64,000 bases of DNA from Fulvivirgaceae bacterium JP3-4 (GTDB taxonomy: Bacteria > Bacteroidota > Bacteroidia > Cytophagales > Cyclobacteriaceae), in assembly GCA_029309925.1 (NCBI GenBank), contig JARKND010000001.1, positions 1,054,001 to 1,118,000 of the forward strand. The letters run 5' to 3'. How positions within the stretch are numbered: the stretch's first letter is position 1; every line of letters starts with the position of its first letter. Under the pieces are notes generated by a model. It was given only the letters and a program-made list of their open reading frames with translations. It was not told the DNA's origin and made no database searches. Both the position numbers and the translations under genes were made by a program. This document shows, piece after piece, positions 717-42,963 of this stretch.

Positions 717-1307
717 ATGACCAAATCGGAGCGCACACGCCAGTTCATTGTTGAGAAAACAGCGCCTCTTTTCAATACGAAAGGATTCGATGGAACGAGT
801 TTGTCCGATCTGACCGAAGCAACGGGACTCACAAAAGGTGCGCTGTACGGGAATTTTTCCGATAAGGATGAAATTGCCGTTGAAGCTTTCCGGCACTCGG
901 CAAAAAAAGTGAAGGAAATGGTCAGGGATCATCTGCAAGGAGCCGACACGTATAAGAAGCGGTTGTTGCTGCTGCTGGATTTTTTTGCCCAGTATGTTTT
1001 TCACCCGCCCGTCCCTGGTGGCTGTCCGTTGCTCAACAGCGCCATCGAGGTGGACGATCATCGCACGTCCATGCGCAGGATGGTAAGTTCTGAATTGCTC
1101 GAAACCATTGACTTTATTGCCGGCTTGCTGAGAAAAGGCGTTCGTGCAAAAGAATTCAGGTCAGATATCAAGCCGCGGCAACTTGCGTATACCTTTTTTT
1201 GTTCTATCGAAGGCGCGCTGATGTTCTCAAGGGTTGAAAAATCGAAGGAGCCGATGGACATTATTGTGAAACATTGCAGAGGAATTTTGGATGAAATTTC
1301 GATTTAA
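717..1307 (+). CDS. TetR/AcrR family transcriptional repressor
   Basis: A 196-residue DNA-binding repressor. The N-terminal helix-turn-helix (about residues 5-52; key stretch GTSLSDLTEATGLTKGALYGNF) is a standard TetR_N domain; the rest is a ligand-binding helical domain with the PGGCPLLNSAIEVDD signature common in Bacteroidota and proteobacterial TetR regulators. The ATG at 717 is preferred over an in-frame TTG at 708 because the TTG lies inside the -7 box. It probably represses itself through the palindrome at 668-689; other targets and the inducer are unknown. The stop codon TAA falls inside the first unit of the heptamer array that follows. Confidence 0.87.
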   Translation: MTKSERTRQFIVEKTAPLFNTKGFDGTSLSDLTEATGLTKGALYGNFSDKDEIAVEAFRHSAKKVKEMVRDHLQGADTYKKRLLLLLDFFAQYVFHPPVPGGCPLLNSAIEVDDHRTSMRRMVSSELLETIDFIAGLLRKGVRAKEFRSDIKPRQLAYTFFCSIEGALMFSRVEKSKEPMDIIVKHCRGILDEISI

Positions 1308-1480
1308 GATTTAAGATTTAAGATTTAAGATTTAAGATTTAGGATTTAAGATTTAAGATTTAAGATTTAAGATTTAAGATTTAAGATTTAAGATTTAAGA
1401 TTTAAGATTTAAGATTTAAGATTTAAGATTTAAGATTTAAGATTTAAGATTTAAGATTTAAGATTTAAGATTTAAGATTT
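1301..1480. repeat. 25-copy GATTTAA heptamer tandem array
   Basis: Twenty-five consecutive 7-base units GATTTAA run from 1301 to 1475 plus a partial GATTT; only the sixth unit differs (GATTTAG). The TetR stop codon TAA is bases 5-7 of the first unit. Near-perfect identity over 175 bases points to recent expansion. The unit carries TAA and its length is not a multiple of three, so any reading frame entering it stops quickly. Confidence 0.95.
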
Positions 1481-1509
1481 TTGTCTCAGCGGCTGATCCG
1501 TACTTTCGA

Positions 1510-1589
1510 ATCAACGTATCAACGTATTAACGTATCAACGTATTAACGAATCAACGTATTAACGAATCAACCTATCAACTAATCACTAA
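1510..1589. repeat. ATYAACGW octamer array abutting the fabF start codon
   Basis: Ten contiguous 8-base units: ATCAACGT, ATCAACGT, ATTAACGT, ATCAACGT, ATTAACGA, ATCAACGT, ATTAACGA, ATCAACCT, ATCAACTA, ATCACTAA. The array ends exactly at base 1589 and the fabF ATG begins at 1590, so the repeats form the whole immediate 5' leader. Units become more degenerate toward the gene. The word is unrelated to the heptamer array 30 bases upstream. Confidence 0.93.
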
Positions 1590-2852: not shown

Positions 2853-2914
2853 GCCGGAAGGACGGAGAGGCAACTGAGGCGAGTCATACTCCTTTGCTGT
2901 GCACACTTTCCATT

Positions 2915-4264: not shown

Positions 4265-4265
4265 G

Positions 4266-4298
4266 AAATTTTGGATTTTAGATTTTCGATTTAAGATT
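4266..4298. repeat. GATTTTA-type heptamer arm next to the kinase start
   Basis: Read on the + strand: GATTTTA, GATTTTC, GATTTAA, GATT, preceded by AATTTTG. It is nearly the reverse complement of the arm at 4363-4396 (about 28 of 32 bases match). On the coding (minus) strand it lies directly upstream of the kinase TTG start. Confidence 0.85.
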
Positions 4299-4362
4299 CA
4301 AAAACATCCCAAAGTTAAGATTTTCCTGACCTAGCGGACAGTAGTGAAATGTATGCTACTCC

Positions 4363-4396
4363 AAATCTAAAATCTAAAATCTAAAATCTAAAATTA
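4363..4396. repeat. AGATTTT heptamer array starting at the response-regulator stop codon
   Basis: On the minus strand the stop codon TAA of the sigma-54 activator begins the array: TAATTTT followed by four AGATTTT/AGATTTG heptamers. It pairs with the arm at 4266-4298 to make an inverted repeat with a ~64-base loop spanning the regulator-kinase gap. Confidence 0.88.
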
Positions 4397-5779
4397 TAGC
4401 CCGTACTTCTCCAACCTCCGGTACAAAGAAGACCTGGTGAGCCCGAGTTCCGAAGCTGCTTGTGTAATGTTCCCGTTGTACTTCTTGAGTACTTTCCGGA
4501 TGAGAAGCTTTTCGACTTCTTCCAGGTTGTACTGCTCCAGGCTGAGCTGACCGTCTTCTTTGCCTGCATTGTTGGTGTTGAAGTTAAAATCTTCGGGTTG
4601 CAGAACGCTGCCGTTGCTGAGGATGACAGCGCGCTCGATGGCATGCTGGAGCTCGCGGATATTTCCAGGCCATGGATGTTTGTGCATCCGCGTAAGCGCT
4701 CCGTCACTGATCTTCGATACGCTTTTGTTGTAACGCGCAGCATAATGCTTGAGAAAATGTGTTGCGAGTAACGGGATATCTTCAAAGCGATCGCGCAGTG
4801 GAGGAATTTCAATTTCAATGGTGTTGATCCTGTAAAGCAAATCCTGGCGGAAGCGGTTTTCTTTCACCATCTCGTACAGCGGCATATTCGTAGCGCAGAT
4901 CAAACGGATATCAATGTTGGTGTCTTTATTGGATCCTACGCGGCTCACTTTCCTGTTCTGCAGCACAGTAAGAAGTTTTGCCTGCAGTGGCATGGAAAGG
5001 TTTCCGATCTCATCAAGGAAGAGTGTGCCGTTGTTTGCAAGTTCAAAACGTCCAGCGCGGTCTTCCTTTGCATCGGTGAACGATCCTTTCTTATGACCGA
5101 ACAACTCGCTTTCAAAAAGTGTTTCGGTGATACTTCCGAGATCAACGCTGGCAAACGTTTCATTCTGCCGTGACGAATTTCTATGGATCGCGCGGGCGAT
5201 CAGTTCCTTTCCGGTTCCATTTTCACCGAGGATCAAAACATTAGCATCGGTTTTAGCTACGCGGTCGATGGTTTGAAAGATCTTCTGCATGGCAGGACTT
5301 TGTCCGATGATCTCGCTGTAACGATCGTTGATCTCCTGGTTGATCTCATGATTTTTTATCTTGAGCGTCTCAATTGTGTCGCGGGACTCGCGCAACCTCA
5401 TTGCAGAGTAGAGCGTGGCAAGCAACTTTTCGTTTTCCCATGGTTTCAGAACGAAGTCGGTAGCGCCTGCTTTGATTGCCTTTACCGCCATCTGCACGTC
5501 ACCATAAGCTGTGATGAGCACAACGACTGCGCTCGGATCGAGAGTCAGGATCTTCTCCAGCCAGTAATATCCTTCGCTGCCGCTGCTTACGTCTTTGGTG
5601 AAGTTCATGTCAAGGAGGATGACATCGTAATCTTCGTTATTCATCAGCGCGGGAATCGCTTCAGGATTTTTTTCAATATCAACCTGCGCAAAGTGTCGCT
5701 TCAGGTGCATTTTCGCGGCTTTCAGAAGGTCTTCGTTATCATCAACGATCAGAATTTTGCCGTGCTTGTTTTCAGCCAT
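4394..5779 (-). CDS. sigma-54-dependent response regulator (NtrC family)
   Basis: A 461-residue activator. Receiver domain residues 1-125 with phosphorylatable Asp about 57 (VILLDMNF) and KPW near 112; AAA+ domain with Walker A GENGTGKE (185-192) and Walker B LFLDEIG; C-terminal Fis-type helix-turn-helix (ITQAASELGLTRSSLYRRL). The sigma-54 contact loop reads GSFTDA (232-237) instead of GAFTGA. The start at 5779 (MAENKHGKILIVDD) is chosen because the frame further upstream has no domain match and overlaps regulatory palindromes. It is upstream of its kinase and divergent from the efflux operon, so that operon is the likely target. Confidence 0.92.
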   Translation of the reverse strand: MAENKHGKILIVDDNEDLLKAAKMHLKRHFAQVDIEKNPEAIPALMNNEDYDVILLDMNFTKDVSSGSEGYYWLEKILTLDPSAVVVLITAYGDVQMAVKAIKAGATDFVLKPWENEKLLATLYSAMRLRESRDTIETLKIKNHEINQEINDRYSEIIGQSPAMQKIFQTIDRVAKTDANVLILGENGTGKELIARAIHRNSSRQNETFASVDLGSITETLFESELFGHKKGSFTDAKEDRAGRFELANNGTLFLDEIGNLSMPLQAKLLTVLQNRKVSRVGSNKDTNIDIRLICATNMPLYEMVKENRFRQDLLYRINTIEIEIPPLRDRFEDIPLLATHFLKHYAARYNKSVSKISDGALTRMHKHPWPGNIRELQHAIERAVILSNGSVLQPEDFNFNTNNAGKEDGQLSLEQYNLEEVEKLLIRKVLKKYNGNITQAASELGLTRSSLYRRLEKYGL

Positions 5780-5937
5780 GGGTTTACAGGTTTGCGATAT
5801 AAAAGTGCTTCGTTTTCGAGACGAGATGTCCGTTTGTGGGCAAAGGCCATACCGAAAGCGAGAATTCGGTCTTTTACGCGAAAAAGTGGTTTTTATACGA
5901 TTTTCGCAGGTTTTTCCTGTTCGCATCCGGACAGGCT

Positions 5938-5953
5938 CGTTCACATGTGAACG
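5938..5953. promoter_or_regulatory. 16-bp palindrome, candidate enhancer site
   Basis: CGTTCACATGTGAACG is a perfect palindrome centred about 89 bases before the transcription start predicted from the sigma-54-like element, a typical place for an NtrC-family upstream activating sequence. The Fis-type DNA-binding domain encoded next door is a plausible ligand. Confidence 0.55.
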
Positions 5954-6006
5954 TAAAATAAAGCAGAATCCAACTTATTGATAGTGTTTTGACCTGTTAA
6001 TTCACT

Positions 6007-6023
6007 TGGCACGTTTGTTGGCA
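6007..6023 (+). promoter_or_regulatory. sigma-54-like promoter upstream of the efflux operon
   Basis: TGGCACG matches the -24 element of sigma-54 promoters. The -12 part reads TTGGCA rather than TTGCA, so its GC is one base further away than the ideal spacing. The neighbouring gene for a sigma-54 activator makes the call reasonable despite the imperfect -12 half. Confidence 0.45.
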
Positions 6024-13855: not shown

Positions 13856-14143
13856 AGTCACTAGTCACTGGTCATTAGAAATTGGGAGGAAAGAGGTCAA
13901 TGAGGAAAGAGGAAATAGGGATAGTCACTGGTCATTAGATACTAGGAGGAAAAAGTAATTGGGAAGTCAGGTCGAAAGAAAATTAGAGGAAAAATGTCTT
14001 ACAAAAAAGGAATTGGGATTGCCAGCATGATAGGAAAAGTCTAATAAGGAAAAGGTAATCGAAAATGTGCCGCTCCTTTTTTCTAATTTCCTTTTTCTCT
14101 TTCCTCCCAATGCCAATGACCAATGACCAGTGACTAGTGACTA
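13856..14143. repeat. convergent RGTCAYT heptamer arrays filling a 347-bp gap
   Basis: On the + strand AGTCACT, AGTCACT, GGTCATT begin at 13856, with a further AGTCACT-GGTCATT copy at 13923. From the other end, the lycopene cyclase stop codon TAG starts TAGTCAC, TAGTCAC, TGGTCAT, TGGTCAT, TGGCATT (14143 down to 14109, minus strand). Both arms are followed by GGGAGGAAAG, so the gap is bounded by an inverted repeat. The middle is purine-rich (GGAGGAAA, GAGGAAAAA) with no gene. Confidence 0.9.
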
Positions 14144-14836
14144 ATAAACCCTCCGATATTCGAGTTCCTCCGCAATAGTCACTGACATGAGAATCATCAG
14201 CATTCCATAAAAGACATCTTCAAGCGGAATTGTTCCGAGGCGGATGCCCATGTTTTCATTGTCGTTGTACCACACTACGGGTTCATCGATCCAGGATCCG
14301 GTGAGGATGCCGTTGACGATAAAAAACGGGATGAGAATGAACATGAAGGAAAAATAGAAACGACCCATGTATCGCGGGCGCAGTTTCAGCATCTGGTACG
14401 CGAGGAATAAGCCCAGCGCCATGAAGGTTACACCTGTGTATGCATTACCAATGTAATAGCCACCAAAGAGCAGCATGCAGAAAATAATGACACTCGAAAT
14501 TATCTCATGGTGCGGATAAAAGTAATCGCGTTCAAAGAGATATGTCAGCGCAAAGTTCATGAAGATGCAGGCGTACGGAATACAGAAGAAGAAGAGCACT
14601 TCTTCGAGCGGCAGACTCATAATCTTCATTCCCGTAAGGTATTTCTCATTAAAACCCCAGATTCCCATTTGTGTGAACAGCTCATCCCACAGAATGAAGA
14701 TGATGGCCGTGATCGTAATGGCAGGAAGCACATACTTCCATTTTTTTGAAAAATTAGCCTTTGGATAGAAGCTGAACAGGAATGGCACGATGAAAGAACC
14801 AATGTTCAGCGCCAGATACAGGTATTTCTGATTCAA
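14141..14836 (-). CDS. lycopene beta-cyclase, fused CrtYc/CrtYd type
   Basis: A 231-residue membrane protein with about seven helices. It carries two copies of the lycopene-cyclase-domain pattern: WDELFTQMGIWGFNEKYLTG then SLPLEEVLFFFCIPYAC in the first half, and the matching WYNDNENMGIRLGTIPLEDVFYG in the second. It would cyclise both ends of lycopene to give beta-carotene in the inner membrane. No ATG lies before the first helix; TTG at 14836, 8 bases after the crtZ stop, is the likely start. Last gene of the carotenoid operon; its stop codon is also the first triplet of a heptamer array. Confidence 0.88.
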   Translation of the reverse strand: MNQKYLYLALNIGSFIVPFLFSFYPKANFSKKWKYVLPAITITAIIFILWDELFTQMGIWGFNEKYLTGMKIMSLPLEEVLFFFCIPYACIFMNFALTYLFERDYFYPHHEIISSVIIFCMLLFGGYYIGNAYTGVTFMALGLFLAYQMLKLRPRYMGRFYFSFMFILIPFFIVNGILTGSWIDEPVVWYNDNENMGIRLGTIPLEDVFYGMLMILMSVTIAEELEYRRVY

Positions 14837-24212: not shown

Positions 24213-24217
24213 GAATT

Positions 24218-24290
24218 AGTCACTGGTCACTAGTCACTAGGAGGAAAGAGGGATATTTCTACCAATTCTAATGACTAGTGACTATTGACT
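24218..24290. repeat. AGTCACT heptamer array after the helicase stop, with inverted arm
   Basis: AGTCACT, GGTCACT, AGTCACT begin 5 bases after the helicase stop, followed by AGGAGGAAAGAG. On the minus strand AGTCAAT, AGTCACT, AGTCATT (24290 down to 24270) form the opposite arm. The words match the 13.86-14.14 kb locus, so these two loci share one family. Confidence 0.9.
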
Positions 24291-26880: not shown

Positions 26881-27005
26881 AAGGGAGAAAAGTATTGGAA
26901 GTTTCAACGGGATGATAAAAATTGCGTTCCCGCTGGGGGTATACAGGTCTTCGAGATTAACATTGCACAGCGCTTGACCCATGTTTGACGATTAGTCTTT
27001 GAACA

Positions 27006-27091
27006 TTTGAAATCTGAAATTTGAAATTTTGAAATTTAATATCGGTGTATCCTTGCTTTAAATTTCAAATGTAAAATGTCAAATTTAAAAT
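27006..27091. repeat. TTTGAAA / TTTCAAA heptamer arms between divergent genes
   Basis: Left arm TTTGAAA, TCTGAAA, TTTGAAA, then an 8-base TTTTGAAA (27006-27034); right arm TTTCAAA, TGTAAAA, TGTCAAA, TTTAAAA (27063-27090). They are roughly reverse complements with a ~28-base spacer. The element occupies the promoter region between the esterase (minus) and the phosphoesterase (plus). Confidence 0.85.
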
Positions 27092-27125
27092 CATTAAAGG
27101 TGCGGTTCAGACCGGTGATTATAGG

Positions 27126-27797: not shown

Positions 27798-29135
27798 ATG
27801 AAAAAAGTTGCCCTCGTGCTTTTGCTATTTGTAATCAGTGGATTTGCTGTCGCGCAGGACACAACACGATTGTCGCTGCTTTTTTTTGGCGACATTATGC
27901 AGCACGATTCTCAAATTTCTGATGCGTATGACCGCGTGACGAAGAAGTACAATTACGATCCGTGCTTTCAGTTTGTGAAGCCGTATATCCAGTCCGTTGA
28001 CCTTGCGATTGGAAACCTGGAACTAACGCTGGCCGGCCCGCCTTACAAAGGTTATCCGCAGTTCAGTGCTCCGGACGAATTGTTGCATACGCTGAAAAGT
28101 TCAGGCGTAGACGTTCTTGTCACAGCCAATAACCACTGCGTTGACACAGGTAAAAAAGGACTTGAACGCACAGTGATGATGCTGGACAGTCTGAAGATCC
28201 CGCACACCGGAACGTTTGTCGATGAAGTTGACAAATTGAATAACCATCCACTTATCATTAATAAGAATGGATTTAAGCTGGCGCTGTTGAACTACACTTA
28301 TGGAACGAACGGACTCCCGATAACAAAACCAAATATTGTAAACCTGATTGATACAGCTGCGATACGCCAGGATCTCATCAAGGCGAAAGCCGCGAAACCT
28401 GATGCCATCATTGTGTTCACGCACTGGGGATCCGAGTACCAGAGTCTGCCTTCAAAATGGCAGAAAGATGTGACGGAGTTTTGCTTCAGACACGGAGCTC
28501 AGCTGGTGATCGGAGCGCATCCGCACGTGTTGCAACCGATGGAATTCCGCAAGGACAAAAATCAATTGATTGCTTACTCCCTTGGGAATTTTGTTTCGGG
28601 TCAGCGGAAGCGCTACACCGATGGTGGAGCGATGATCACGATGTATCTGGAGAAGGTGACCTTCAATGACGAAAGCAGCATCACTACGATTAAAAATCCG
28701 GAGTATACCCTCGAGTGGGTTTACCGGACAGTGGATGCTGAGAAAAATTATTATATCCTTCCTGTTCCGGAATTTGAAAAAGACACAACAGGATTCATCA
28801 GGGATGAAGAATCAAAAGCCGCCTTCAAGTTGTATGCGGCTGACTCTCGTGCGTTGTATAAGAAACACAACATTGAAATCCCGGAAAACACTGACATTCC
28901 CTCCGACACCCTCGTTACATTTAAGGTGCAGGTTTCTGCGTCATCATCGAGCAATAACGGAAGTACATTGAACCTGCCTTATGGGATCGAAAAGTCAGAT
29001 TCGGGCGAAGCGGAGCTCTACTATTCAGGAGAATTCCTTGAGCAAAACGCTGCGGAAAAATATCAGAAGAAACTCGCTGCCCTAGGCTATACCACCACGG
29101 TTGTAAAATTTATGAACAACCAAAAGTCCGACTAG
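27798..29135 (+). CDS. CapA-like metallophosphatase-fold protein with C-terminal SPOR-like domain
   Basis: A 445-residue exported protein. Signal peptide MKKVALVLLLFVISGFAVAQ; CapA/PgsA domain at residues ~25-290 with FFGDIMQHDSQI, GNLELTLAGPP, TANNHCVDTGKKG, THWGSEYQ and IGAHPHVLQPME. The last ~70 residues (FKVQVSAS ... YYSGEFLEQNAAEKYQKKLAALGYTTT) look like a peptidoglycan-binding SPOR domain. CapA proteins are tied to poly-gamma-glutamate or envelope polymers; the SPOR tail suggests septal or wall localisation. Lies 33 bases after pdeM. Its stop codon is followed at once by a heptamer array. Confidence 0.85.
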   Translation: MKKVALVLLLFVISGFAVAQDTTRLSLLFFGDIMQHDSQISDAYDRVTKKYNYDPCFQFVKPYIQSVDLAIGNLELTLAGPPYKGYPQFSAPDELLHTLKSSGVDVLVTANNHCVDTGKKGLERTVMMLDSLKIPHTGTFVDEVDKLNNHPLIINKNGFKLALLNYTYGTNGLPITKPNIVNLIDTAAIRQDLIKAKAAKPDAIIVFTHWGSEYQSLPSKWQKDVTEFCFRHGAQLVIGAHPHVLQPMEFRKDKNQLIAYSLGNFVSGQRKRYTDGGAMITMYLEKVTFNDESSITTIKNPEYTLEWVYRTVDAEKNYYILPVPEFEKDTTGFIRDEESKAAFKLYAADSRALYKKHNIEIPENTDIPSDTLVTFKVQVSASSSSNNGSTLNLPYGIEKSDSGEAELYYSGEFLEQNAAEKYQKKLAALGYTTTVVKFMNNQKSD

Positions 29136-29191
29136 CCTTCAACCTTGAACCTTGAACCTTGAACGCGTAACTCGTAACCCGCAATCCCGCT
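29136..29191. repeat. CCTTGAA heptamer array immediately after the capA-like stop
   Basis: Directly after the stop TAG: CCTTCAA, CCTTGAA three times, then decaying heptamers CGCGTAA, CTCGTAA, CCCGCAA. Phase is kept at seven bases for the whole run. Confidence 0.9.
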
Positions 29192-29221
29192 GTTCCGCTT
29201 CGCTTCAATCGGGGGTCCGCG
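29191..29221. repeat. REP-like element, copy at 29.2 kb
   Basis: Contains TTCCGCTTCGCTTCAATCGG, closely matching the 37-bp duplicated element at 44.1 kb. It lies immediately past the stop codon of the minus-strand gene that ends at 29222. Confidence 0.7.
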
Positions 29222-29794
29222 CTACCAGTCTTCGTCAATCACCTGATTCACTTTAATCGTAAAGCTGTCTTTAAAGCTTGAGTGAAGGATGTCGAGGTTT
29301 ACGGCATTTCGTTTCTTAAAGTGTGTGCGATAATTGTTGAGCGCAAAATCTTCCAGTGTGCCTGAAACTTCGTGCTGTTCGATCGTGGCCTTGCCGGACC
29401 CTGTCGATGCCTGAAGCGCTTTGTACGTGATGCCCTGCAGAATGACCCTGTATTTTCCTTCCTTGAAATTGATTCTCACTTTTCCGAAGAACCTTCCTGT
29501 GCGGACAATGGATGATGTATTCGTAAATTTTCCGCCATAGCGTTTGTAGTCGGGGCGATATTCGGTCAGTTCTGCAACGATGTCTGTACCCTCAAAGTGA
29601 ATGTCTTTGATCCACACTTTGTTTTTGAGATGGGTAAACAGGCGTTCGGGTAAGTTTTCTACCACCGGCTCTTCGTGATACACCTGCACCCATACTACAT
29701 CTTTGTGCTCGATATGAAACGAGCGGTACGCAACGGGAACCTGGGCAGAAACAACGTGGGCGACAAAAAGTAAAATGACTGAAATAAACTTCAT
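29222..29794 (-). CDS. secreted hypothetical protein
   Basis: A 190-residue protein with signal peptide MKFISVILLFVAHVVSAQ and an otherwise soluble beta-rich-looking sequence (many alternating hydrophobic/charged stretches such as YRVILQGITYKAL). No known domain recognised. Start 29794 is fixed by the signal peptide. It begins 4 bases after the stop of the upstream outer-membrane-type gene, so the two are probably cotranscribed and could act together in the envelope. Confidence 0.7.
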   Translation of the reverse strand: MKFISVILLFVAHVVSAQVPVAYRSFHIEHKDVVWVQVYHEEPVVENLPERLFTHLKNKVWIKDIHFEGTDIVAELTEYRPDYKRYGGKFTNTSSIVRTGRFFGKVRINFKEGKYRVILQGITYKALQASTGSGKATIEQHEVSGTLEDFALNNYRTHFKKRNAVNLDILHSSFKDSFTIKVNQVIDEDW

Positions 29795-32488: not shown

Positions 32489-34216
32489 ATGCGATTGAAT
32501 ACTATCATCCGCGTTACAGCTTTTCTATTTGTTTTAACTCTGCTCGGCTGCGGTCGCTCGAAAACGCCTGCCGATATGGTTATCCATGGCGGCAAGATAT
32601 ACACTGTTAACGACAAAGAGCCGGTGGTTGAAGCCGTTGTTGTAGTGAATGGGAAAATCGAATTTGCGGGAAAGGAAAGTGAAGCGCGCGATTATATCGG
32701 TGAGAAGACGCAAGTGATCGACCTGGCAGGTAAAACCATGACACCTGGTTTCATTGAGGGGCACGGTCACATCATGGGTGTCGGTTACAACGAATTGAAT
32801 CTCGACCTTGCTTCCGTCAAAAACTACAACGAACTCGTTGAGAAGGTTCGCGAGGCAGCAAGCAAGGCAAAACCCGGTCAGTGGATCCAGGGTCGTGGAT
32901 GGCATCAGGAGAAGTGGGATCAGAAACCCGACAAGCTCGTCAAGGGATTCCAGACGCATCATCTGCTGAGCGAAGCATCGCCAAACAATCCGGTGTTCCT
33001 GCGCCATGCAAGTGGCCATGCTGCGCTGGCCAATGCGAAGGCTATGGAGATAGCAGGAGTAAATCCGCTTTCGGTTGAGAAGCTTCAGCAAAACCTCACG
33101 CAGCAAGGCGGTGAGGTGATTCTTGACGAACTTGGAAATCCCACTGGGATCTTCAACGAGCGCGCGATGAGTCTTGTCACTCGTCATATTCCTGAAAACA
33201 CTTCGGAAACAAATGAGCAGGCGCTCGATCTGGCTATCAAGGCTTGCTGGAGAAACGGGATTACAAGCTTCCATGATGCGGGCGCGGGGAGAGAAGACAT
33301 TGAATTGTTCAAAAAGTTTAAAGCAGAAAACAAACTTGGAATCAGATTGTATGTAATGCTCACGGGATTCGATCGCGAGCTCGTGTACGAGCGGTTTAAA
33401 AAAGGTCCTGAAATTGATAAGGACAATTTGCTGACTATCCGATCAGTGAAGCTGAATTGTGACGGAGCGCTCGGATCGCGCGGGGCGTGGCTGCTTGAAT
33501 CGTATTCTGATCGTCCGAACTTCTTCGGCATGGCAACATATCCGATGGACACCGTTCTCAAAATATCGCGTGAAGCGCTGAAGGCGGGATTCCAGGTGTG
33601 CTCACATGCGATCGGTGACCGTGCGAACCAGGAGATACTGAATCGTTACGAGCAGGCAATGAAAGAAAATCCAGGCGCAAAAGATCATCGCTTCCGCATC
33701 GAGCATGCACAACATCTTCATCCGAACGATATTCCGCGATTCGCTCAGCTCGGTGTAATACCAGCGATGCAGGCAATACACATGTCGTCAGACAGACCAT
33801 GGGCAATTGAGCGCCTTGGCGAAAAGAGAATCAAGGAAGGCGCTTACATGTGGCAATCGTTGCTGAAGTCAGGTGCGCATATCGTGAACGGTACAGACGC
33901 CCCTGTAGAACCATTGAATCCGATCCCAAGTTTTTATGCATCAATCACCCGCAAGACGCTGAAAGGTGAACCCGAAGGTGGTTATGAACCGGAGGAGAAG
34001 ATGACACGCGAGCAGGCGCTGAAGTCATACACGCTTGATGCAGCCTATGGTGCTTTCGAAGAGAATATCAAAGGCAGCATTGAAAAAGGCAAGCTTGCCG
34101 ACTTCGCCATATTTTCCAAAAACATCATGGAAGCAGAAGAGATGGAGGTGCTGACTGCAACCGTTGAGATGACTATTGTGGGGGGTAAAGTGGTGTTTGA
34201 TAAAAAGCTCCAATAA
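32489..34216 (+). CDS. amidohydrolase family lipoprotein (YtcJ/AMDHD-like)
   Basis: A 575-residue metal-dependent hydrolase. The N-terminus has a lipobox (LTLLGCGRS), so it is probably a lipoprotein. The metallo-beta-lactam-like barrel motifs are the opening MVIHGGKIYTVND, TPGFIEGHGHIMG (HxH), HAIGDRA and RIEHAQHL, then GTDAPVEPLNP and the closing KGKLADFAIF. Amidohydrolase_3 members remove acyl groups or open cyclic amides; substrate not known. ATG 32489 chosen over upstream TTG. Its stop codon is followed directly by a heptamer array. Confidence 0.88.
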   Translation: MRLNTIIRVTAFLFVLTLLGCGRSKTPADMVIHGGKIYTVNDKEPVVEAVVVVNGKIEFAGKESEARDYIGEKTQVIDLAGKTMTPGFIEGHGHIMGVGYNELNLDLASVKNYNELVEKVREAASKAKPGQWIQGRGWHQEKWDQKPDKLVKGFQTHHLLSEASPNNPVFLRHASGHAALANAKAMEIAGVNPLSVEKLQQNLTQQGGEVILDELGNPTGIFNERAMSLVTRHIPENTSETNEQALDLAIKACWRNGITSFHDAGAGREDIELFKKFKAENKLGIRLYVMLTGFDRELVYERFKKGPEIDKDNLLTIRSVKLNCDGALGSRGAWLLESYSDRPNFFGMATYPMDTVLKISREALKAGFQVCSHAIGDRANQEILNRYEQAMKENPGAKDHRFRIEHAQHLHPNDIPRFAQLGVIPAMQAIHMSSDRPWAIERLGEKRIKEGAYMWQSLLKSGAHIVNGTDAPVEPLNPIPSFYASITRKTLKGEPEGGYEPEEKMTREQALKSYTLDAAYGAFEENIKGSIEKGKLADFAIFSKNIMEAEEMEVLTATVEMTIVGGKVVFDKKLQ

Positions 34217-34258
34217 CCAAAATCCAAAGACCAAATCCCAAAAACCAAAAACCAAATG
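34217..34258. repeat. CCAAANN heptamer array immediately after the amidohydrolase stop
   Basis: Six units with no gap after TAA: CCAAAAT, CCAAAGA, CCAAATC, CCAAAAA, CCAAAAA, CCAAATG. The reverse complement of the last part (CATTTGG) recurs in the ~85-bp repeats that follow. Confidence 0.92.
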
Positions 34259-34585
34259 GGAGAGTACACTCCACGGTACACGCTTCTATTTGAGATTTGG
34301 TAATTGATTATTGGATATTTTTAAATGCGTTGAACGCTAACTCCAAAGGAGAATGCTATTGCCTCAACACGCCCCTCTTTGAGATTTGGTCATTGATCAT
34401 TGGTGCTTTTCACCCCGTGGTCTTTGAACGAGGAATACTAGTGCTTCAACACGCCTCCCATTTGAGCTTTGGTCATTGATCATTGAAATTTTTAGTGCGT
34501 TGAACTCCAATTGGAGGAATGGACGAGCTTCGACACGACTCTATTTGAGATTTGCTTATTGACCATTGGTGGTTTTAACAGTAAC
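34259..34585. repeat. ~85-bp tandem repeats with internal hairpins
   Basis: Units start with ATTTGAGATTTGG-like sequence at 34288, 34377, 34460 and 34543 (spacing 89, 83, 83), with a partial half-unit before the first. Each has an AT-rich part with GGTCATTGATCATTGG, then a hairpin-like part bounded by GCGTTGAAC and CTTCAACACGC and holding CTCCAAAGGAG or the perfect palindrome CTCCAATTGGAG. No coding frame fits. Together with the heptamers it fills a 432-bp gene-free gap between the amidohydrolase and terB-like gene. Confidence 0.85.
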
Positions 34586-36059: not shown

Positions 36060-38222
36060 ATGGCGCAATTAAGATTCGAAGCTCTCAAAAGGCTGAGCGA
36101 ACGGCCCAAAGTGCATGTTGACCTTTCCACCCCATTTGTGTCCAAGTTCTTTGGCGAAAATGTGTATGGAATTGAGCAAATGCGCGCAACGTTAGCCCCT
36201 GCTGTATTCAAGAAGGTAAGTCAGGCTATCAAGAACCACGAAAAGATTGATGAAGCAACAGCCGATGCAGTAGCTTCAGCAGCAAAGTCGTGGGCTATCT
36301 CGAAAGGTGCAACGCACTTCACCCACTGGTTCCAGCCAATGACCGGTGGAACAGCAGAAAAGCATGATTCGTTTTTCGATGCGTTAGCAGGAATTGAAAA
36401 ATTCAAAGGCAGCGAACTCGTCCAGCAGGAGCCAGACGCATCGTCTTTCCCGAGCGGAGGAATCAGAAGTACTTTTGAAGCACGCGGTTATACAGCTTGG
36501 GATCCAACCTCCCCGATGTTCCTTTATGGAAAAACGCTCTCCATTCCTACTGTCTTCGTTTCTTATACCGGAGAAACACTTGACACAAAAGCGCCATTGT
36601 TGAAAGCTCTGAAGGCAGTAGACATTGCAGCAACGCAGGTTTGCCAGTTGTTTGACAAGGACATCCAGCATGTAGTTGCCTCTCTCGGATCTGAGCAGGA
36701 ATATTTCGTTGTTGATTCTGCACTCTTCCAGGCACGACCAGACCTGGTGATGGCGGGTCGCAGCGTGTTTGGTCATTCACCGGCACGCGGTCAGCAGATG
36801 GAAGATCATTACTTCGGATCAATTCCGAGCCGTGTTTATGATTTCATGAAGGATTTTGAAATCGAAGCATGGAAACTTGGAATTCCGGTTCGCACACGCC
36901 ACAATGAGGTTGCGCCAAGCCAGTTTGAAGTGGCCCCGTTGTTTGAGGAAGTAAACGTAGCGAACGATCACAACCAGCTCCTGATGGATGTGATGAATCG
37001 TGTCGCTGAAAAGCATAGCCTTAAAATTATTTTCCACGAGAAGCCTTTCGCGGGATTGAACGGATCGGGTAAGCACAACAACTGGTCGCTGATCACTGAC
37101 ACCGGTGTGAATCTTTACGCACCAACAAGCAGCGCGCGTGATAATCTTATGTTCCTCACCTTCTTCATCACCACAGTGAAGGCCGTGCATGAATACTCTG
37201 ATCTGCTCCGGGCAAGTATCGCTACCCAGGCAAATGATTTCCGCCTCGGTGCGAACGAAGCTCCTCCAGCGATCATGTCTGTATTCCTTGGTTCACAGAT
37301 GTCTGCCGTGCTTGATGAGCTCGAGAAGAAAGGAAACGTGAAGATTGAGAAAGGTGACAATATGTATATGAAACTCGGAATCGACCAGATCCCTGAGATC
37401 ATACTCGATGCAACAGACCGCAACCGTACTTCGCCTTTTGCATTCACCGGAAATAAGTTCGAGTTCCGCGCAGTAGGAGGAAGCGATAACTGTGCTACAC
37501 CGATGACCGCATTGAACACCATCGTAGCGGAACAGCTCACCCATTTCCTTGCTGCAGTAAATAAGGAAATCGACAAGGGTGAAGAAAAGCGTATTGCGAT
37601 TGTGAACGTTCTCCGCCAATACATCAAGGAATCGAAGAACATACGTTTCGAGGGTGATGGTTATTCAGACGAGTGGGTACAGGAAGCAGCGAAGCGTGGT
37701 CTTAGCAATCTGAAAAATACGCCACGTGCTCTAGAAGCTTACCTTCAGAAAAAATCAATGGATCTCTTCGAGAAACATGGTGTTATGTCGCACAAGGAGG
37801 TTGAAGCGCGTACGGAAATCCGCTGGGAATCGTATATCAAGCGCGTGCAGATCGAAGCGCGTGTGATGGGTGACCTCGCGATGAACCATATTGTTCCTAC
37901 AGCAATTGCTTACCAGAACAAGCTGATCACAAACGCAAATGGGCTGGCAGGTCTTGGCATTGATAACAAAGCTGTTGTTCAGACGATAAAGGAAATTTCC
38001 GGATACATCGAGATCATCAAGAACGGTGTGCGTGAAATGGTTGAAGAGCGCAAGCGCATCAACAAGATCACTGATACGCATAAACGCGCCATCGCCTACT
38101 GCGATGATATCAAAGAAAAATACTTTGAGTCGATCCGCGATGCCGTTGATAAGCTTGAATTGCTTGTTGATGACGAAGACTGGCCACTGGTGAAATACAG
38201 AGAGCTTCTTTTCCTGAGATAA
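36060..38222 (+). CDS. glnA: glutamine synthetase type III
   Basis: A 720-residue GSIII enzyme, condensing glutamate and ammonia with ATP to glutamine. Family marks: SKFFGENVYGIEQMR at the N-terminus, THWFQPMTGGTAEKHDSF, DPTSPMFLYGKTL, LGSEQEYFVVD, PVRTRHNEVAPSQFEVAP, NGSGKHNNWSL and FEFRAVGGSDN. Length matches the ~80 kDa type III form. It is transcribed alone, with its own operator-like promoter and terminators. The end of the gene reads TAAGCT TAAGCT, a short hexamer repeat starting at its stop codon. Confidence 0.96.
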   Translation: MAQLRFEALKRLSERPKVHVDLSTPFVSKFFGENVYGIEQMRATLAPAVFKKVSQAIKNHEKIDEATADAVASAAKSWAISKGATHFTHWFQPMTGGTAEKHDSFFDALAGIEKFKGSELVQQEPDASSFPSGGIRSTFEARGYTAWDPTSPMFLYGKTLSIPTVFVSYTGETLDTKAPLLKALKAVDIAATQVCQLFDKDIQHVVASLGSEQEYFVVDSALFQARPDLVMAGRSVFGHSPARGQQMEDHYFGSIPSRVYDFMKDFEIEAWKLGIPVRTRHNEVAPSQFEVAPLFEEVNVANDHNQLLMDVMNRVAEKHSLKIIFHEKPFAGLNGSGKHNNWSLITDTGVNLYAPTSSARDNLMFLTFFITTVKAVHEYSDLLRASIATQANDFRLGANEAPPAIMSVFLGSQMSAVLDELEKKGNVKIEKGDNMYMKLGIDQIPEIILDATDRNRTSPFAFTGNKFEFRAVGGSDNCATPMTALNTIVAEQLTHFLAAVNKEIDKGEEKRIAIVNVLRQYIKESKNIRFEGDGYSDEWVQEAAKRGLSNLKNTPRALEAYLQKKSMDLFEKHGVMSHKEVEARTEIRWESYIKRVQIEARVMGDLAMNHIVPTAIAYQNKLITNANGLAGLGIDNKAVVQTIKEISGYIEIIKNGVREMVEERKRINKITDTHKRAIAYCDDIKEKYFESIRDAVDKLELLVDDEDWPLVKYRELLFLR

Positions 38223-38263
38223 GCTTAAGCTTAAAGCAAGAGGAGTACAGGTTGATTATTAAG

Positions 38264-38302
38264 ATCAATCAGCCACTTGCAAAAGTGATTGACGTTTTTT
38301 TT
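38264..38302 (+). terminator. bulged hairpin terminator after glnA
   Basis: TCAATCA ... TGATTGA with inner CACTT/AAGTG and a 4-base bulge, followed by nine T. Confidence 0.7.
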
Positions 38303-38321
38303 TTCTTAAACCTAAACTTTA

Positions 38322-38351
38322 AAAGCGGTTTCCGAGAGGGACCGCTTTTTT
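38322..38351 (+). terminator. second terminator, AAAGCGGT/ACCGCTTT
   Basis: 8-bp stem (38322-38329, 38341-38348) and T tract. Two terminators in series insulate glnA from the downstream peptidase gene. Confidence 0.88.
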
Positions 38352-38508
38352 AATTTGTCCAAAGCCCTGAAGGATGACCATTTCAATTGTTGGCCTGACA
38401 TTGATAATACACGAAACCTGCTTTCTGCTTTTAGCTTTCAGCTTTTATACGGAAGGTTAGGAACTCATCCCAAATTGCCTTTTCTTCGAATCCCTAAACT
38501 TCAAACGA

Positions 38509-39981
38509 ATGCGGAAGGCAATTTTAGCACTTTTCATCCTGGTCAGCACGCTGACATTTGCGCAGAAAAAGAAAGGTGCAGCTTCAATTGACGATATTAT
38601 CAGGCCAGAGGAAATTGAAGCTCATCTCTCATTTTTGGCTGCGGATGAAATGCGTGGCCGGAATGCAGGCTCACCCGAAATTGAAATTGCGGCCAACTAC
38701 ATCCGGGCAAACTTCAAAATCTATGGCTTGAAACCTGTGCCCGGTGCCAGCAATTATTTTCAGCGCGTAGACCAGTTGAAGTTATCTCCGGCCACTTTCG
38801 GTGAGGCATCGATTGGTGATAAGAAATTTTTGCTCAAAGAAAGTCTGCTCGTCATTGATGGCGACTCACTTTCTTGGTCGGGAGATTTCATCTATGTCGG
38901 CTATGGCAGCGATGAAGACCTGAAGAAATATGATCTTAAAGGCAAAATGGTGCTTGCCCTTGCCGGGGCGAAAAATGCTGACCAGCTGAACAAAGTGTTC
39001 AACGCTAGCTCGGCAAAACTCAAAAGCGTTCGTGACGCTGGCGCGCAAGGTCTCGTAGAAATATTGGCACTGCCACAGGCACCCTGGCCAACGCTGGTAA
39101 ATTATTTGTCAGGAACCTCGTGGACAATCAGAAGACCGGACAAAGTGATCCCACATGTATGGGTGAAGCCTGGTGACCTGGCATCACTGTCACTGCAGGA
39201 AAACACAACTGTCAAAGGATCATTGTCAATGTCCGGCAAGAAGAAAATCGAAGTGCCCGGAAAGAACGTGGTGGGCATGATTGAGGGCTCTGATGCAAAA
39301 TTGAAAGATCAATACATTGTGATTACCGCCCACTATGACCATATAGGTGTCGGCAAGAGTAAAGATGGGCAGGACTCGATTTTCAATGGCGCGCGCGACA
39401 ATGCTGTAGGAGCAACAGCGTTGATGCAGACGGCAAAATATCTGAAACTTAATCCACCGAAACGCTCTGTTATATTGATTGCACTGACCTCAGAAGAGAA
39501 GGGGCTGTTGGGTAGTAAGTGGTACACCGAAAATCCGCTGATACCATTGAACAAGACTGTGTTGAGCATCAATTGCGATGGGGTAGGTTATAACGACAAG
39601 TCAATCATTACGAGCATCAGCTGGGGGCGGACATCTTCCGATCCCCTGGTAACGAAGGCAGCAAAGGCGTATGGCCTGGGCGTTGGTGGTGATCCAGATC
39701 CAAAGGAAGGATTTTTTGAGCGTTCCGATCAGGTTTCATTTGCCAGTAAAGGAGTTGTTGCCATCAAGCTTCAGCCCGGCCTCGCGCGGATGGATGACGA
39801 GATCAGAAAATATTATCACCGCCAGGCGGACGAAGTATCGACACTCGACTTCGACTACCTGACCAAATTTTATAAAACCTTCGTCACCGCGGTACAACTG
39901 CTCGCCAATGAGCCGGGAAAATATTCATGGAATGCAGGTGATAAGTATGAGGAGGTTTCCAAGAAGCTGTACGGGCAGTGA
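38509..39981 (+). CDS. secreted M28-family zinc aminopeptidase
   Basis: A 490-residue exported peptidase. Signal peptide MRKAILALFILVSTLTFAQ; PA-like insert at residues ~110-240; catalytic M28 domain with HYDHIG (Zn His and Asp), GARDNAVG (bridging Asp), TSEEKGLLGS (Glu base and ligand), NCDGVG and the distal FFERSDQVSF. Removes N-terminal residues from peptides in the periplasm or outside. Its stop is followed after 3 bases by an octamer array. Confidence 0.9.
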   Translation: MRKAILALFILVSTLTFAQKKKGAASIDDIIRPEEIEAHLSFLAADEMRGRNAGSPEIEIAANYIRANFKIYGLKPVPGASNYFQRVDQLKLSPATFGEASIGDKKFLLKESLLVIDGDSLSWSGDFIYVGYGSDEDLKKYDLKGKMVLALAGAKNADQLNKVFNASSAKLKSVRDAGAQGLVEILALPQAPWPTLVNYLSGTSWTIRRPDKVIPHVWVKPGDLASLSLQENTTVKGSLSMSGKKKIEVPGKNVVGMIEGSDAKLKDQYIVITAHYDHIGVGKSKDGQDSIFNGARDNAVGATALMQTAKYLKLNPPKRSVILIALTSEEKGLLGSKWYTENPLIPLNKTVLSINCDGVGYNDKSIITSISWGRTSSDPLVTKAAKAYGLGVGGDPDPKEGFFERSDQVSFASKGVVAIKLQPGLARMDDEIRKYYHRQADEVSTLDFDYLTKFYKTFVTAVQLLANEPGKYSWNAGDKYEEVSKKLYGQ

Positions 39982-39984
39982 AAT

Positions 39985-40106
39985 GTGTTCATGTACGCAT
40001 GTGCTCTGGTGCTCATGTCAGGTACTCTGAACCGCTTTTTTGGCAGAGTAGCTGAGTCGCGAACGGCACTCCCACATGAGCACAGAACACCCGATCACCT
40101 GCGCAC
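39985..40106. repeat. convergent GTGNNCAT octamer arrays between two gene ends
   Basis: On the + strand, 3 bases after the M28 stop: GTGTTCAT, GTACGCAT, GTGCTCTG, GTGCTCAT (39985-40016). On the minus strand, 2 bases after the opposing hydrolase stop: GTGCGCAG, GTGATCGG, GTGTTCTG, TGCTCATG (40106 down to 40075). The arms form an inverted repeat around a ~58-base centre. Confidence 0.85.
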
Positions 40107-40108
40107 AA

Positions 40109-41002
40109 CTACTTTTTGACCGTCAGCGAATCCGCCCTTACCACCATCTTTAAAACAGCATCGGTGATCAACTGCGGGTGCGACCACGGGACAAAGTGAT
40201 TCATGTCGTCAACGATCACATATTCGACTGGCGCATTGACGAGCATCTTTTTTGCAAACTCCACATTTTCATAAGGCACAAGCTCGTCCACTTTTCCCTG
40301 GATGACAATGACCGGACACGTAATGTTCTTCCAGTAAGGGAGCATCTGTTCCAGCTCAGGCTTGAGGTGATAGATTTCTTCGTTTGAAGCCCGAAATGCG
40401 CCAGGTAAAATCCAGCTTAGAAAGGGAGTGGCGAGTGGCGCGCGAAACCAGGTTTCATTCGGTTCGAGTTCGGGGTCAATCGACCCGGCAACGATGATCA
40501 AACCATCCACAAGTTCAGGATACTCAATCGCCATTTTTGCAATCAGCGGTCCTCCAAGGGAATGACCGACAAGCACTCGCGGTTTGTTATGCCGGTACTT
40601 TTCGAGAATGGGTTTTAGTGCCAGTGCCTGTTTCTTTAGGGAAGGTTCTGCGTTTCCGAAGTTTGAGTAACCGAAGCCCGGACGATCTGTTGTAACCAGA
40701 AAAGCATTTTCTCTAAGCTTCTCCGTTGCGAGAAATCCAATGAAGGCATCCAGCGAGCCGGGCGATCCGTGAACAAACAATACAAGCGGTTTTGTACTGT
40801 CTCCTGCGCTGACATAATGAATATCACGCCACTCGTATTTGTATTGATGCTGGTTTGCGCTGAGGTTTCTGCTTTTGAAGTAGCTGTCAACTTCTTTCGA
40901 TGACATCCGAAAGCTCGGCATGCACGAGTGGAGGAAAAGTACAGGCGCGGCAAGAACGATCAGGATTGTGATAACCCCGATCCTCCGAAACGACAACTTC
41001 AT
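40109..41002 (-). CDS. membrane-anchored alpha/beta hydrolase
   Basis: A 297-residue alpha/beta-hydrolase fold protein. An N-terminal hydrophobic stretch ends in LFLHSCMPS, a possible lipobox. Motifs: LVLFVHGSPGS (oxyanion hole), VLVGHSLGGPL (Ser nucleophile), GKVDELVPYENV (Asp) and MNHFVPWSH (His). Substrate unknown. It begins 5 bases after the S41 protease gene, so the two are an operon. Confidence 0.85.
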   Translation of the reverse strand: MKLSFRRIGVITILIVLAAPVLFLHSCMPSFRMSSKEVDSYFKSRNLSANQHQYKYEWRDIHYVSAGDSTKPLVLFVHGSPGSLDAFIGFLATEKLRENAFLVTTDRPGFGYSNFGNAEPSLKKQALALKPILEKYRHNKPRVLVGHSLGGPLIAKMAIEYPELVDGLIIVAGSIDPELEPNETWFRAPLATPFLSWILPGAFRASNEEIYHLKPELEQMLPYWKNITCPVIVIQGKVDELVPYENVEFAKKMLVNAPVEYVIVDDMNHFVPWSHPQLITDAVLKMVVRADSLTVKK

Positions 41003-41007
41003 TTATT

Positions 41008-42657
41008 CTATTGTAAATTAAGTAGCTTCCTGTACTGAGGAAGATTGTGAACGATTTCAACTGCTTTCTTGATATCCTGATCGTATTTGAAACCGGTTTC
41101 AATCCCGCCTTTCTCAAGGTGATAGCGCGACACAATCTCTTCCTCGAGCAACATCTTGATCTGCTCTTTGTGGAGCATTAACTCATTCTTTTTGCTCTCT
41201 TCAATCCGCTTCTGGATCTGATCAAGTTGGCCTTTGATCTCACCATAATACTTCTCTTTTTTCGCCTCTTCGGTCAGCTGCTGGATGCCATACTCAAGAA
41301 ACGTTTTGTAAGCATAATCTTTGTCCTTCATCCACGTTACAAACTGCTGATACTCGTCATCTGAGAGACTGAAATTGCGAGCATCGACCTGCAGGTTCTT
41401 GCCAGTCACGTAATGGGTAGCGAAGTCAAAAAGAAAGCCCTTTTCAAACAGCACCTGTGTGAGTGGATGCGCTTCCTCAGCAGCCACTTTAATGTCCGGC
41501 TCAATGCCACCGCCATCATGCACCGTGCGTCCGGTTGAAGTCTTGAATTCGCGCTTCAATGAATCGGGAATCGACCCCACACTGCCATCGTCTCTGCGGT
41601 GAGCATAGTCGAGCACCTGGATACAACGGCCGGTTGGTGTATAATATTTTGCTGTAGTGACTTTAAGTTGAGAGTTATAGGACAACGGACGGCTTACCTG
41701 CACCAGGCCTTTTCCGTACGACTTTTCACCAATCACAATAGCGCGATCATAATCCTGCAATGTGCCAGCAACGATCTCTGAAGCGGAAGCGCTTCCGCGA
41801 TTAATCAGAACCGTTACGGGAATCTCAGTGTCTGTCGGGTTGTTTAAGGTTTCGTAGCTCAGGTTGTTTTCCGGAATCTTGCCTTTCGTGCTCACTACAA
41901 GTTTCCCTTTCGGGAGAAACAGATTACAGATATTCACGGCTTCGATCAACAGACCTCCAGGATTTCCGCGAAGATCGAGGATCACGCTTTTTGCACCTTG
42001 TTCTTTCAGCGCCACCAAAGCATTCTTCACTTCTTTTCCTGCATCAGGTGTAAAATCCGACAGGTGGATATAGGCAACATCTTTTCCAATAAGGCCGAAA
42101 TACGGAACGTTGCTTACCTTGATCTTTTCACGTTTGAATTCTAGTCTGATGGGCTTGTCAACGCCTGCGCGCTTCACGGTAAGGGCAACGGGAGTTCCTA
42201 CCTGACCTTTCATGAGTTGGCTCGATTGTTCCCGCGACAGCTTTGACAACTCGATATCATCAATCTTTAATACTTCATCTCCGATTTTCAAGCCACCTTT
42301 CTGTGCGCCATAACCTTCCATGATCATCGTTACCACAGTGCGATTGCCGATCTCGCGCGTGATGGCTCCTATGCCACCATACTGTCCGGTGTTGATAGTT
42401 CTGAAATCCTCAACTTCATCTTCAGGGATGTAGTTTGTGTAAGGGTCAAGCGAGGTGAGCATCGCGTCAATCCCTGTCCGCACGAGTGTGTTGGGATTAA
42501 CCTCATCCACATACAGTGCGTTGACTTCCTTAAACAGTGTTGCAAAAATGTCGAGGTTCTTGGCGATCTCGAAATATCGTTCGGCCGGCCTCGTAAACGA
42601 GAAGGCGATGAGTGCAACAATAAATATCAGGGGTAAATAGAATCTCTTCTTCTTCAT
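41008..42657 (-). CDS. ctpA: carboxy-terminal processing protease (S41, CtpA-like)
   Basis: A 549-residue envelope protease. Membrane anchor at residues 7-22; PDZ domain about 92-165 (GGIGAITREIGNRTVV, GLKIGDEVLKIDD); S41 protease domain with LDLRGNPGG, NRGSASASEI and GEKSYGKGLVQ. By the 25-residue Ser-Lys spacing of the family, Ser291 and Lys316 are the likely dyad. A C-terminal coiled region follows (~420-520). Cleaves C-termini of periplasmic proteins. Confidence 0.94.
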   Translation of the reverse strand: MKKKRFYLPLIFIVALIAFSFTRPAERYFEIAKNLDIFATLFKEVNALYVDEVNPNTLVRTGIDAMLTSLDPYTNYIPEDEVEDFRTINTGQYGGIGAITREIGNRTVVTMIMEGYGAQKGGLKIGDEVLKIDDIELSKLSREQSSQLMKGQVGTPVALTVKRAGVDKPIRLEFKREKIKVSNVPYFGLIGKDVAYIHLSDFTPDAGKEVKNALVALKEQGAKSVILDLRGNPGGLLIEAVNICNLFLPKGKLVVSTKGKIPENNLSYETLNNPTDTEIPVTVLINRGSASASEIVAGTLQDYDRAIVIGEKSYGKGLVQVSRPLSYNSQLKVTTAKYYTPTGRCIQVLDYAHRRDDGSVGSIPDSLKREFKTSTGRTVHDGGGIEPDIKVAAEEAHPLTQVLFEKGFLFDFATHYVTGKNLQVDARNFSLSDDEYQQFVTWMKDKDYAYKTFLEYGIQQLTEEAKKEKYYGEIKGQLDQIQKRIEESKKNELMLHKEQIKMLLEEEIVSRYHLEKGGIETGFKYDQDIKKAVEIVHNLPQYRKLLNLQ

Positions 42658-42801
42658 ATCACAGGAATCAACGTCAAATGCAGGATAAAATTACTGTACC
42701 GTAAGTTCCTGATTTATACGTAAAAAAGCATCCAGGTAAATGAAATTTTCAGCGGATTTACGGGAATCTGCTTTTCGGAGCGACCAGTGGCAAGCCGGGG
42801 T

Positions 42802-42963
42802 TAATGTGCCAATGTGCCAATTAGTCAATGTGCCAATTGACTGACGTTGATTGCGCTAGTCGAGGTGGCAAACCCGTCCGCATGAACGTATAACTTCGAA
42901 TTTAACGTTTCGGTCATTGGCACATTAGCATATTGGCTAATCAATTCATTGACGCCACGCGTT
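42802..42963. repeat. CAATGTGC octamer array pair upstream of the protease gene
   Basis: Left arm, + strand: TAATGTGC, CAATGTGC, CAATTAGT, CAATGTGC, CAATTGAC (42802-42841). Right arm, minus strand, in phase with the dipeptidase end codons CAA-TGA: CAATGAAT, TGATTAGC, CAATATGC, TAATGTGC, CAATGACC. The two share the CAATGTGC word and bracket ~70 bases of unrelated sequence. Confidence 0.85.

Follow-up and report, generated by a model that had tools for sequence, protein, structure and literature searches.

Opposed heptamer arrays form imperfect hairpins beside stop codons in two congeneric Bacteroidota genomes and are spelled with different words in each

Introduction

Many protein genes in a 64,000-nucleotide (nt) stretch of Fulvivirgaceae bacterium JP3-4 (GenBank assembly GCA_029309925.1, contig JARKND010000001.1, positions 1,054,001 to 1,118,000; hereafter the window) meet, at or just past their stop codons, tandem arrays of 7- or 8-nt units that differ from locus to locus. 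Which kind of element keeps its period and its place when its letters vary? An initial annotation, made from the letters of the window, described such arrays at nine gene ends. Here, we report that the element is an imperfect hairpin composed of two opposed tandem arrays of a 7-mer (at times an 8-mer), with ~4–5 units in each array and a unique spacer of ~50–60 nt, that its arms abut stop codons more often than expected by chance, and that another species of the same genus carries arrays at the same gene ends in different words. Earlier bacterial heptamer repeats were noticed as single words, without a role. Shared sites without shared words separate selection on structure and position from sequence history, which makes function testable and bears on the annotation of 3' ends in Bacteroidota.

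The window corresponds to G000:C1:1054001-1118000 of the host genome (G000; 5.81 Mb in 5 contigs), which was compared with two congeners, G002 and G001, whose ligase-associated DEXH helicases are 84% and 81% identical to that of the host. The best named matches of this helicase were in Ohtaekwangia koreensis (80%) and Chryseolinea lacunae (79%), which makes the host a Bacteroidota of Cyclobacteriaceae-like affinity. Genes were called with a simple home-made caller, in which stops are exact and starts approximate.

Results and discussion

Self-match runs were counted at every lag in the window and in 400 kb of evenly spaced host DNA (48 kb intergenic), with dinucleotide shuffles and coding DNA of matched length as controls. 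Intergenic DNA of G000 contained 37 runs at lag 7, cf. 0.2 in the shuffles and 0.6 in an equal length of coding DNA, and 8 runs at lag 8 relative to 0 in shuffled sequence; other lags gave 0–5 runs, near chance, save for lags 14, 16 and 21, which are harmonics. In another 400 kb of G000, sampled independently, lag 7 gave 51 runs and lag 8 gave 11; the arrays are a genome-wide phenomenon. An excess at lags 7 and 8 away from the first loci, on which the initial annotation had staked its proposal, was thus present. As head-to-tail 7-nt units that are intergenic and above chance, the arrays are heptamer simple sequence repeats (SSRs) in the broad sense of the short tandemly repeated repetitive (STRR) and long SSR (LSSR) class.

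The arrays had been described as one-sided, but the gaps mostly hold an inverted partner. Nearly every listed window array has a reverse complement in its own gap, and in a larger sample a clear partner (89–90% complementary over ~22 nt) was found at 66% of array loci in G000 and 73% in G002. Arm complementarity scores in G000 averaged 15.4 within the arm's own gap, cf. 8.0 when the arm was scored on other gaps with arrays and 7.8 on shuffles of the own gap; the corresponding values in G002 were 17.0, 8.2 and 7.3. Predicted RNA folds of array-bearing gaps had median z scores of -3.5 (G000) and -3.3 (G002), relative to -0.9 and -0.8 for other gaps. Because the inverted partner shares the gap, the object is a hairpin and not a one-sided array of words.

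For the analysis of position, each array was placed randomly inside its own gap 1000 times, and arms within 3 nt of a codon were scored as abutting it. Stop-abutting arms numbered 36 in G000 (16.0 ± 3.5 expected) and 32 in G002 (10.2 ± 2.8 expected), above all 1000 placements in both cases. Start-abutting arms were not enriched (4 relative to 6.9 expected in G000, 1 relative to 5.0 in G002), and the octamer array at fabF, among those first noted directly before starts, is an isolated case. Arrays were present in 38% (G000) and 41% (G002) of convergent gaps, 11% and 29% of tandem gaps, and 7% and 22% of divergent gaps. The whole stop triplet was in phase with the unit in 4 of 22 abutting arrays in G000 and 2 of 24 in G002; a unit that contains the stop itself, as first noted at several loci, is therefore a minority pattern, and the arrays begin just after the stop. 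Counted on the coding strand, stop-abutting arms were unequal in G and C in 66 cases, and G was the more frequent of the two in 50 of these (p=3e-5).

Word use was examined in 0.97 Mb of G000 and 0.415 Mb of G002. The 97 period-7 arms of G000 fell into 20 word clusters (47 for random words), with AAATTTC, AAGCTGC, AAAATCT, AACCTTG, the AGTCAYT family and AAAAACC as leading words, and its 26 period-8 arms into 9, while the 88 arms of G002 formed 14 clusters led by AAACTTT, ACAGTCC, AACCGGC, ACCTCGT and AATCGGT. Each species draws on a small lexicon of its own. Three consecutive units of GTTTAAA occurred 380 times genome-wide in G002, 9 times in G000 and 2 times in G001; those of AACCTTG 72 times in G000 and 0 times in G001 and G002; and those of GATTTAA 132 times in G000 and 0 times in the congeners, with 0 matches to the reversed control. 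Lag-7 runs numbered 2 in 21 kb of intergenic DNA in G001 vs 40 in 21 kb in G002, where hairpins are still more numerous than in G000, and this contrast between dense (G000 and G002) and near-empty (G001) genomes offers a natural comparison for a gene that makes or spreads arrays. The initial formulation of one rule with different words in a fixed position holds genome-wide in lag counts, word clusters and stop-abutting placement. Other Bacteroidota (e.g. relatives of Chitinophaga and Lewinella) showed weaker period-7/8 signals, some of them paired.

Two individual loci involve leading or host words. In a related genus (G035, locus L202, 8672-8863), a long (GATTTAA)n array stands right at a stop codon with GACATAA units before it; the word is that of the host, but arrays there are few and long. 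At L190 17595-18570 (G000:C1), 3' of a tRNA-like sequence, about seven direct repeats of ~120 nt each contain an AAGCTGC array and repeat the 3' end of the tRNA-like sequence (ctctccgcagaag), which suggests tandem duplication of a heptamer array together with its flank.

Words that differ between species, stand in inverted pairs where genes end and are heavily repeated across the genome would also be expected if the words were recognised as DNA, for example as signals for DNA uptake or as sites for the nucleoid or for replication. The uptake words of Neisseria and Haemophilus likewise lie at gene ends in inverted pairs, where they serve as terminators as well. Uptake words are, however, non-tandem and single per species, whereas here a single genome holds many unrelated families that share nothing but the period, and we consider recognition words a quite unlikely explanation.

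The same sites were used in G000 and G002. We compared 59 ends of orthologous genes that leave room 3' of the stop, taken from reciprocal best hits of this one species pair, using a detection threshold fixed before the test; the idea for the test came from the first nine window sites, which are included among the 59. Stop-abutting arrays were found in both species at 7 ends (1.7 expected), in G000 only at 2, in G002 only at 4 and in neither at 46 (p=3e-5). Within the main 270 kb block, the counts in the same order were 4, 0, 3 and 26 for tandem neighbours alone (p=9e-4) and 6, 0, 5 and 28 for ends where both species have 60 nt or more of space (p=1e-4). At shared sites, the aligned protein ends differed by no more than 4 residues, and the stops have therefore kept their place. 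A word-to-word mapping between the species, suspected from AGATTTT/GTTTAAA and AGTCACT/AGTCCAC, was not supported: words at shared sites resembled each other no more closely than did those of permuted pairs (P=0.46). At the end of the DEXH helicase gene, all three genomes have a stem next to the stop: TAGTCAC arms in G000 (z -4.9), AGTCCAC arms in G002 (z -5.5) and, in G001, a perfect 11-bp stem that lacks heptamers.

One further pair of orthologous gaps may involve a structured RNA. In G002, L160 14335-14942 contains what looks like a candidate RNase P RNA (GAGGAAAGTCCGGGCAACACAGAG) beside a GGTAATC hairpin, and the orthologous gap in the host (G000:C1:1041023-1042003) carries CCAAANN/CCAATAA arrays.

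Placement and sharing of this kind might alternatively arise from neutral or selfish heptamer repeats. Such families would lengthen by replication slippage, with a unit close to the polymerase footprint in size, would pass from locus to locus and would persist in the places where they are least harmful (just past stops and in convergent gaps); inverted pairs would then come from template switching or repeated insertion, and shared sites from common descent together with the small number of places that tolerate arrays in both species. In many genomes, heptamers are described as the most frequent class among long SSRs, with slippage via a 7-nt polymerase contact proposed (Mrazek 2007 as cited in PMC4679880), and neutral repeats also fit the sharp difference in array density within one genus, the presence of a 26-copy near-perfect GATTTAA array, the independent gain at C1:1092223 (see below) and the several arrays without a partner. 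Slippage alone, however, gives neither same-family arms facing each other in one gap nor a small lexicon common to many loci (20 clusters vs 47 for random words). Moreover, arrays are almost missing just before starts, long tandem gaps included, and sites are shared above chance inside one gap class though no ancestral word survives. We regard neutral repeats as a possible explanation, though on the less probable side.

The origin of the pairs was also considered. The two arms of a pair resembled each other no more than they resembled arms of their family at other loci. Pairs therefore do not consist of local inverted copies, and local inverted duplication of one arm was rejected as the main route. 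Dispersed, species-specific families at gene 3' ends do resemble repetitive extragenic palindromic (REP) sequences and bacterial interspersed mosaic elements (BIMEs), and the five Y1_Tnp (Y1-transposase) genes of G000 could in principle serve a non-autonomous element, similar to a miniature inverted-repeat transposable element (MITE) or a REP, that is moved by a Y1 transposase such as a REP-associated tyrosine transposase (RAYT), has heptamer arrays as terminal repeats and inserts beside stops. REPs and BIMEs have a fixed palindrome of 20–40 nt with a conserved body. The arrays are likewise dispersed palindromes close to gene 3' ends, but have no conserved body: spacers were unrelated between loci, and internal sequence was shared only in local duplications. 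Y1_Tnp genes numbered 5, 4 and 4 in G000, G001 and G002 and did not follow array density, G001 being almost array-free, and a dozen unrelated words share a single period. The unrelated spacers and the flat transposase count speak against a MITE- or REP-like element with a fixed body, in line with the initial view that the arrays do not look like ordinary mobile repeats, and we judge a mobile element to be very improbable.

The reading we prefer, which we hold about as probable as its negation, is that exchangeable heptamer arrays supply a 3'-end stem-loop that is selected for its structure. The arrays would be transcribed together with the upstream gene and, after the ribosome leaves the stop codon, would fold into a stem-loop at the 3' end. 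This stem-loop may mark or protect the mRNA end and restrict read-through, and where genes converge it would do so from either side. Selection would act on the presence and position of the stem and not on its letters, so that any heptamer family could serve, and word families would move from locus to locus and supplant each other more quickly than species diverge. In support of a 3'-end role, terminator-like sites were rarer at array-bearing ends than at other gene ends in G000 (10% vs 19%, p=0.04). A stem that shields the 3' end of the mRNA, or one that stops read-through where genes converge, would fit the data as well as termination would.

Several observations weigh against this role at 3' ends. 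The deficit of terminator-like sites is weak in G000 and absent in G002 (14% vs 15%), and arrays as substitutes for intrinsic terminators were rejected for this reason. The stems lack the U-tract of intrinsic terminators; they do not match the pattern of a GC-rich stem followed by a U-tract that defines intrinsic (rho-independent) terminators, and terminator-like sites were not commoner at array ends. Divergent gaps hold arrays too, about one third of array loci in the larger sample had no detectable partner, and the array at 29136 of the window has neither an inverted partner nor a stable fold (z 0.14). Arm pairs fit each other no better than they fit same-family arms elsewhere, so compensatory change per locus is unsupported. 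Any such role cannot be essential, because G001, of the same genus, is nearly without arrays. The G001 stem at the helicase end is not unusual relative to shuffles (z -1.3). Finally, the shared gap at C1:1092223 reflects independent gain, because the G000 and G002 arrays flank a conserved terminator on opposite sides. A broader, letter-independent version of stem-loop selection, in which a group of Bacteroidota keeps stem-loops at chosen gene ends in 7-nt units with a species-specific, fast-changing lexicon, through an undescribed copying activity that moves arrays and sets the unit length, appears unlikely.

The claim that no element of this kind had been described needs revision. In Xanthomonas, GGGAATC heptamers form 70–75 close inverted pairs per genome with ~4 units, few of them between divergent genes (Rehm et al. 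2015, PMC4692102); these arrays lie at or over stop codons, show the G-rich arm on the sense strand where they follow genes and are mostly transcribed (PMC4692102). At the G-quadruplex-forming heptamer repeats of Xanthomonas axonopodis, transcripts begin or end more frequently than at control sites (PMC4692102), which we count in favour of a 3'-end role. Arrays in G000 and G002 share the close inverted pairs near or over stops and the G-rich arm on the sense strand. Unlike Xanthomonas, which has one G-quadruplex word per lineage, the host has 20 period-7 and 9 period-8 clusters, most without a G-tract; the G-quadruplex-forming word GGGNATC is absent from the lexicon, and congeners here spell shared sites with different words.

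Single-word arrays are known from Beggiatoaceae, Cyanobacteria and a few Bacteroidetes (PMC4679880): TAACTGA direct repeats occur in the former two and in five Bacteroidetes, mostly just upstream of starts and with one inverted case (MacGregor 2015, PMC4679880). These repeats are also intergenic heptamer arrays, partly in Bacteroidetes, but consist of one word and are direct and start-proximal, whereas ours have many words and are inverted and on the stop side; TAACTGA is absent from our lexicon, and start sides are not enriched. Closer in one respect is the P6b stem of the group I intron in the tRNA-Leu(UAA) gene (trnL) of Nostoc, built of heptamer units with unrelated words (TDNGATT or NNTGAGT) that fold similarly and have repeatedly replaced each other (PMC4476775). 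That case concerns one intron site and two words; here, there are many intergenic sites and many words. Cyanobacterial STRRs are tandem heptamer families dispersed between genes, and to our knowledge they have not been described as stop-adjacent inverted pairs. Words of this type from Calothrix are cited in the Xanthomonas report (PMC4692102). Relative to these systems, and within the open-licence literature covered, it is new that one genome uses so many words, that the words turn over between congeners and that sites are shared all the same; a precedent in Bacteroidota outside that literature is possible.

Array loci in the window

Coordinates below are those of the window; the first two arrays are on the plus strand, and the remaining features carry no strand. 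Tandem Repeats Finder (TRF) found period-7 or period-8 arrays at or near most of the nine gene ends first listed, but the ends at 39981, 40109 and 42946 have only degenerate octamers, below or near the detection threshold. No Rfam family matched the window at gathering score.

A GATTTAA array of 25.7 copies (1301-1480; TRF, 98% match) starts inside the last codons and stop (TAA, 1305-1307) of a TetR-like gene (717-1307). It is followed by a period-8/16 array (ATCAACGT; 1510-1585, TRF) that ends 4 nt before the start of fabF at 1590, a gene identified by NCBIfam TIGR03150. At the sigma-54 response-regulator gene (4394-5779, minus strand), a hairpin arm of the AGATTTT/GATTTAA family (4267-4298) forms a 32-nt inverted pair with 4364-4395 (TRF 4363-4394), which abuts the stop; the arms are 91% complementary with a 65-nt spacer (RNA fold z -5.0), and the orthologous end in G002 carries a GTTTAAA hairpin. 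Similarly, an arm of the AGTCACT/GGTCATT family (13856-13885, TRF 13856-13878; a further copy at 13922-13955) is 90% complementary over 30 nt to 14113-14142 (TRF 14107-14145), with a 227-nt spacer. The latter arm overlaps, in phase, the TAG stop of a lycopene-cyclase-domain gene (14141-14836, minus strand), the G002 ortholog of which ends at an AGTCGAC array.

The DEXH helicase gene (21762-24212) is followed after 4 nt by a TAGTCAC-family arm (24217-24240; TRF) and its partner (CTAATGACTAGTGACTATTGACT; 24268-24290; TRF, fold), and the hairpin 24217-24290 folds at -35 kcal/mol (z -5.2). The related array noted at 27.0 kb was recovered by TRF at 26998-27091: a TTTGAAA-family arm (26998-27037) and its partner (AAATTTCAAATGTAAAATGTCAAATTT; 27060-27091), both from TRF and sequence reading, lie in the divergent gap 26983-27125. 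Gene 27798-29135 has, right behind its stop, a CCTTGAA array that passes into GTAACYC heptamers (29136-29187, TRF 29136-29164; lag-7 run score 22.5). The CCAAANN array (34210-34256; TRF, fold z -4.1) spans the stop of gene 32576-34216 and is complementary to all four copies of TTTGAGATTTGGTNATTGATNATTGG, which are spaced ~83–89 nt apart (34278-34321, 34367-34410, 34450-34493 and 34533-34576), in a one-against-four arrangement. At the stop of gene 36060-38222, the arm TAAGCTTAAGCTTAAAGC (38220-38240) is complementary to GCTTTCTGCTTTTAGCTTTCAGC (38420-38447; TRF), with a terminator-like hairpin between the two arms.

Octamers occupy the next two gaps. A degenerate GTGNNCAT arm (39983-40014) after the stop of gene 38509-39981 faces a degenerate partner (40077-40108; sequence reading, gap fold) at the stop of gene 40109-41002 (minus strand), and the gap folds with z -2.5. 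The other gap holds an octamer arm (AATGTGCC; 42803-42837, TRF) and a degenerate partner (TTGGCACATTAGCATATTGGCTAAT; 42912-42944, sequence reading) beside the stop of gene 42946-44208 (minus strand). The called start of this gene is probably ~63 codons too far upstream; its G002 and G001 orthologs align from residue 64, so the period-7 run at 44026-44060 is intergenic.

Two further repeats were seen in the window. A 37-nt unit (GATGTTTCGCATCGCTACAATCGGGGTCTTCGACCAC), REP-like in appearance, occurs in two tandem copies at 44082-44153 with a 66% similar copy at 29189-29223, and its core was absent from all 236 other loci searched. A period-7 run (CTGCTTTATGCTTTCC; 52696-52727) lies within the reading frame of gene 50380-53184; runs of this kind are rare in other coding DNA.

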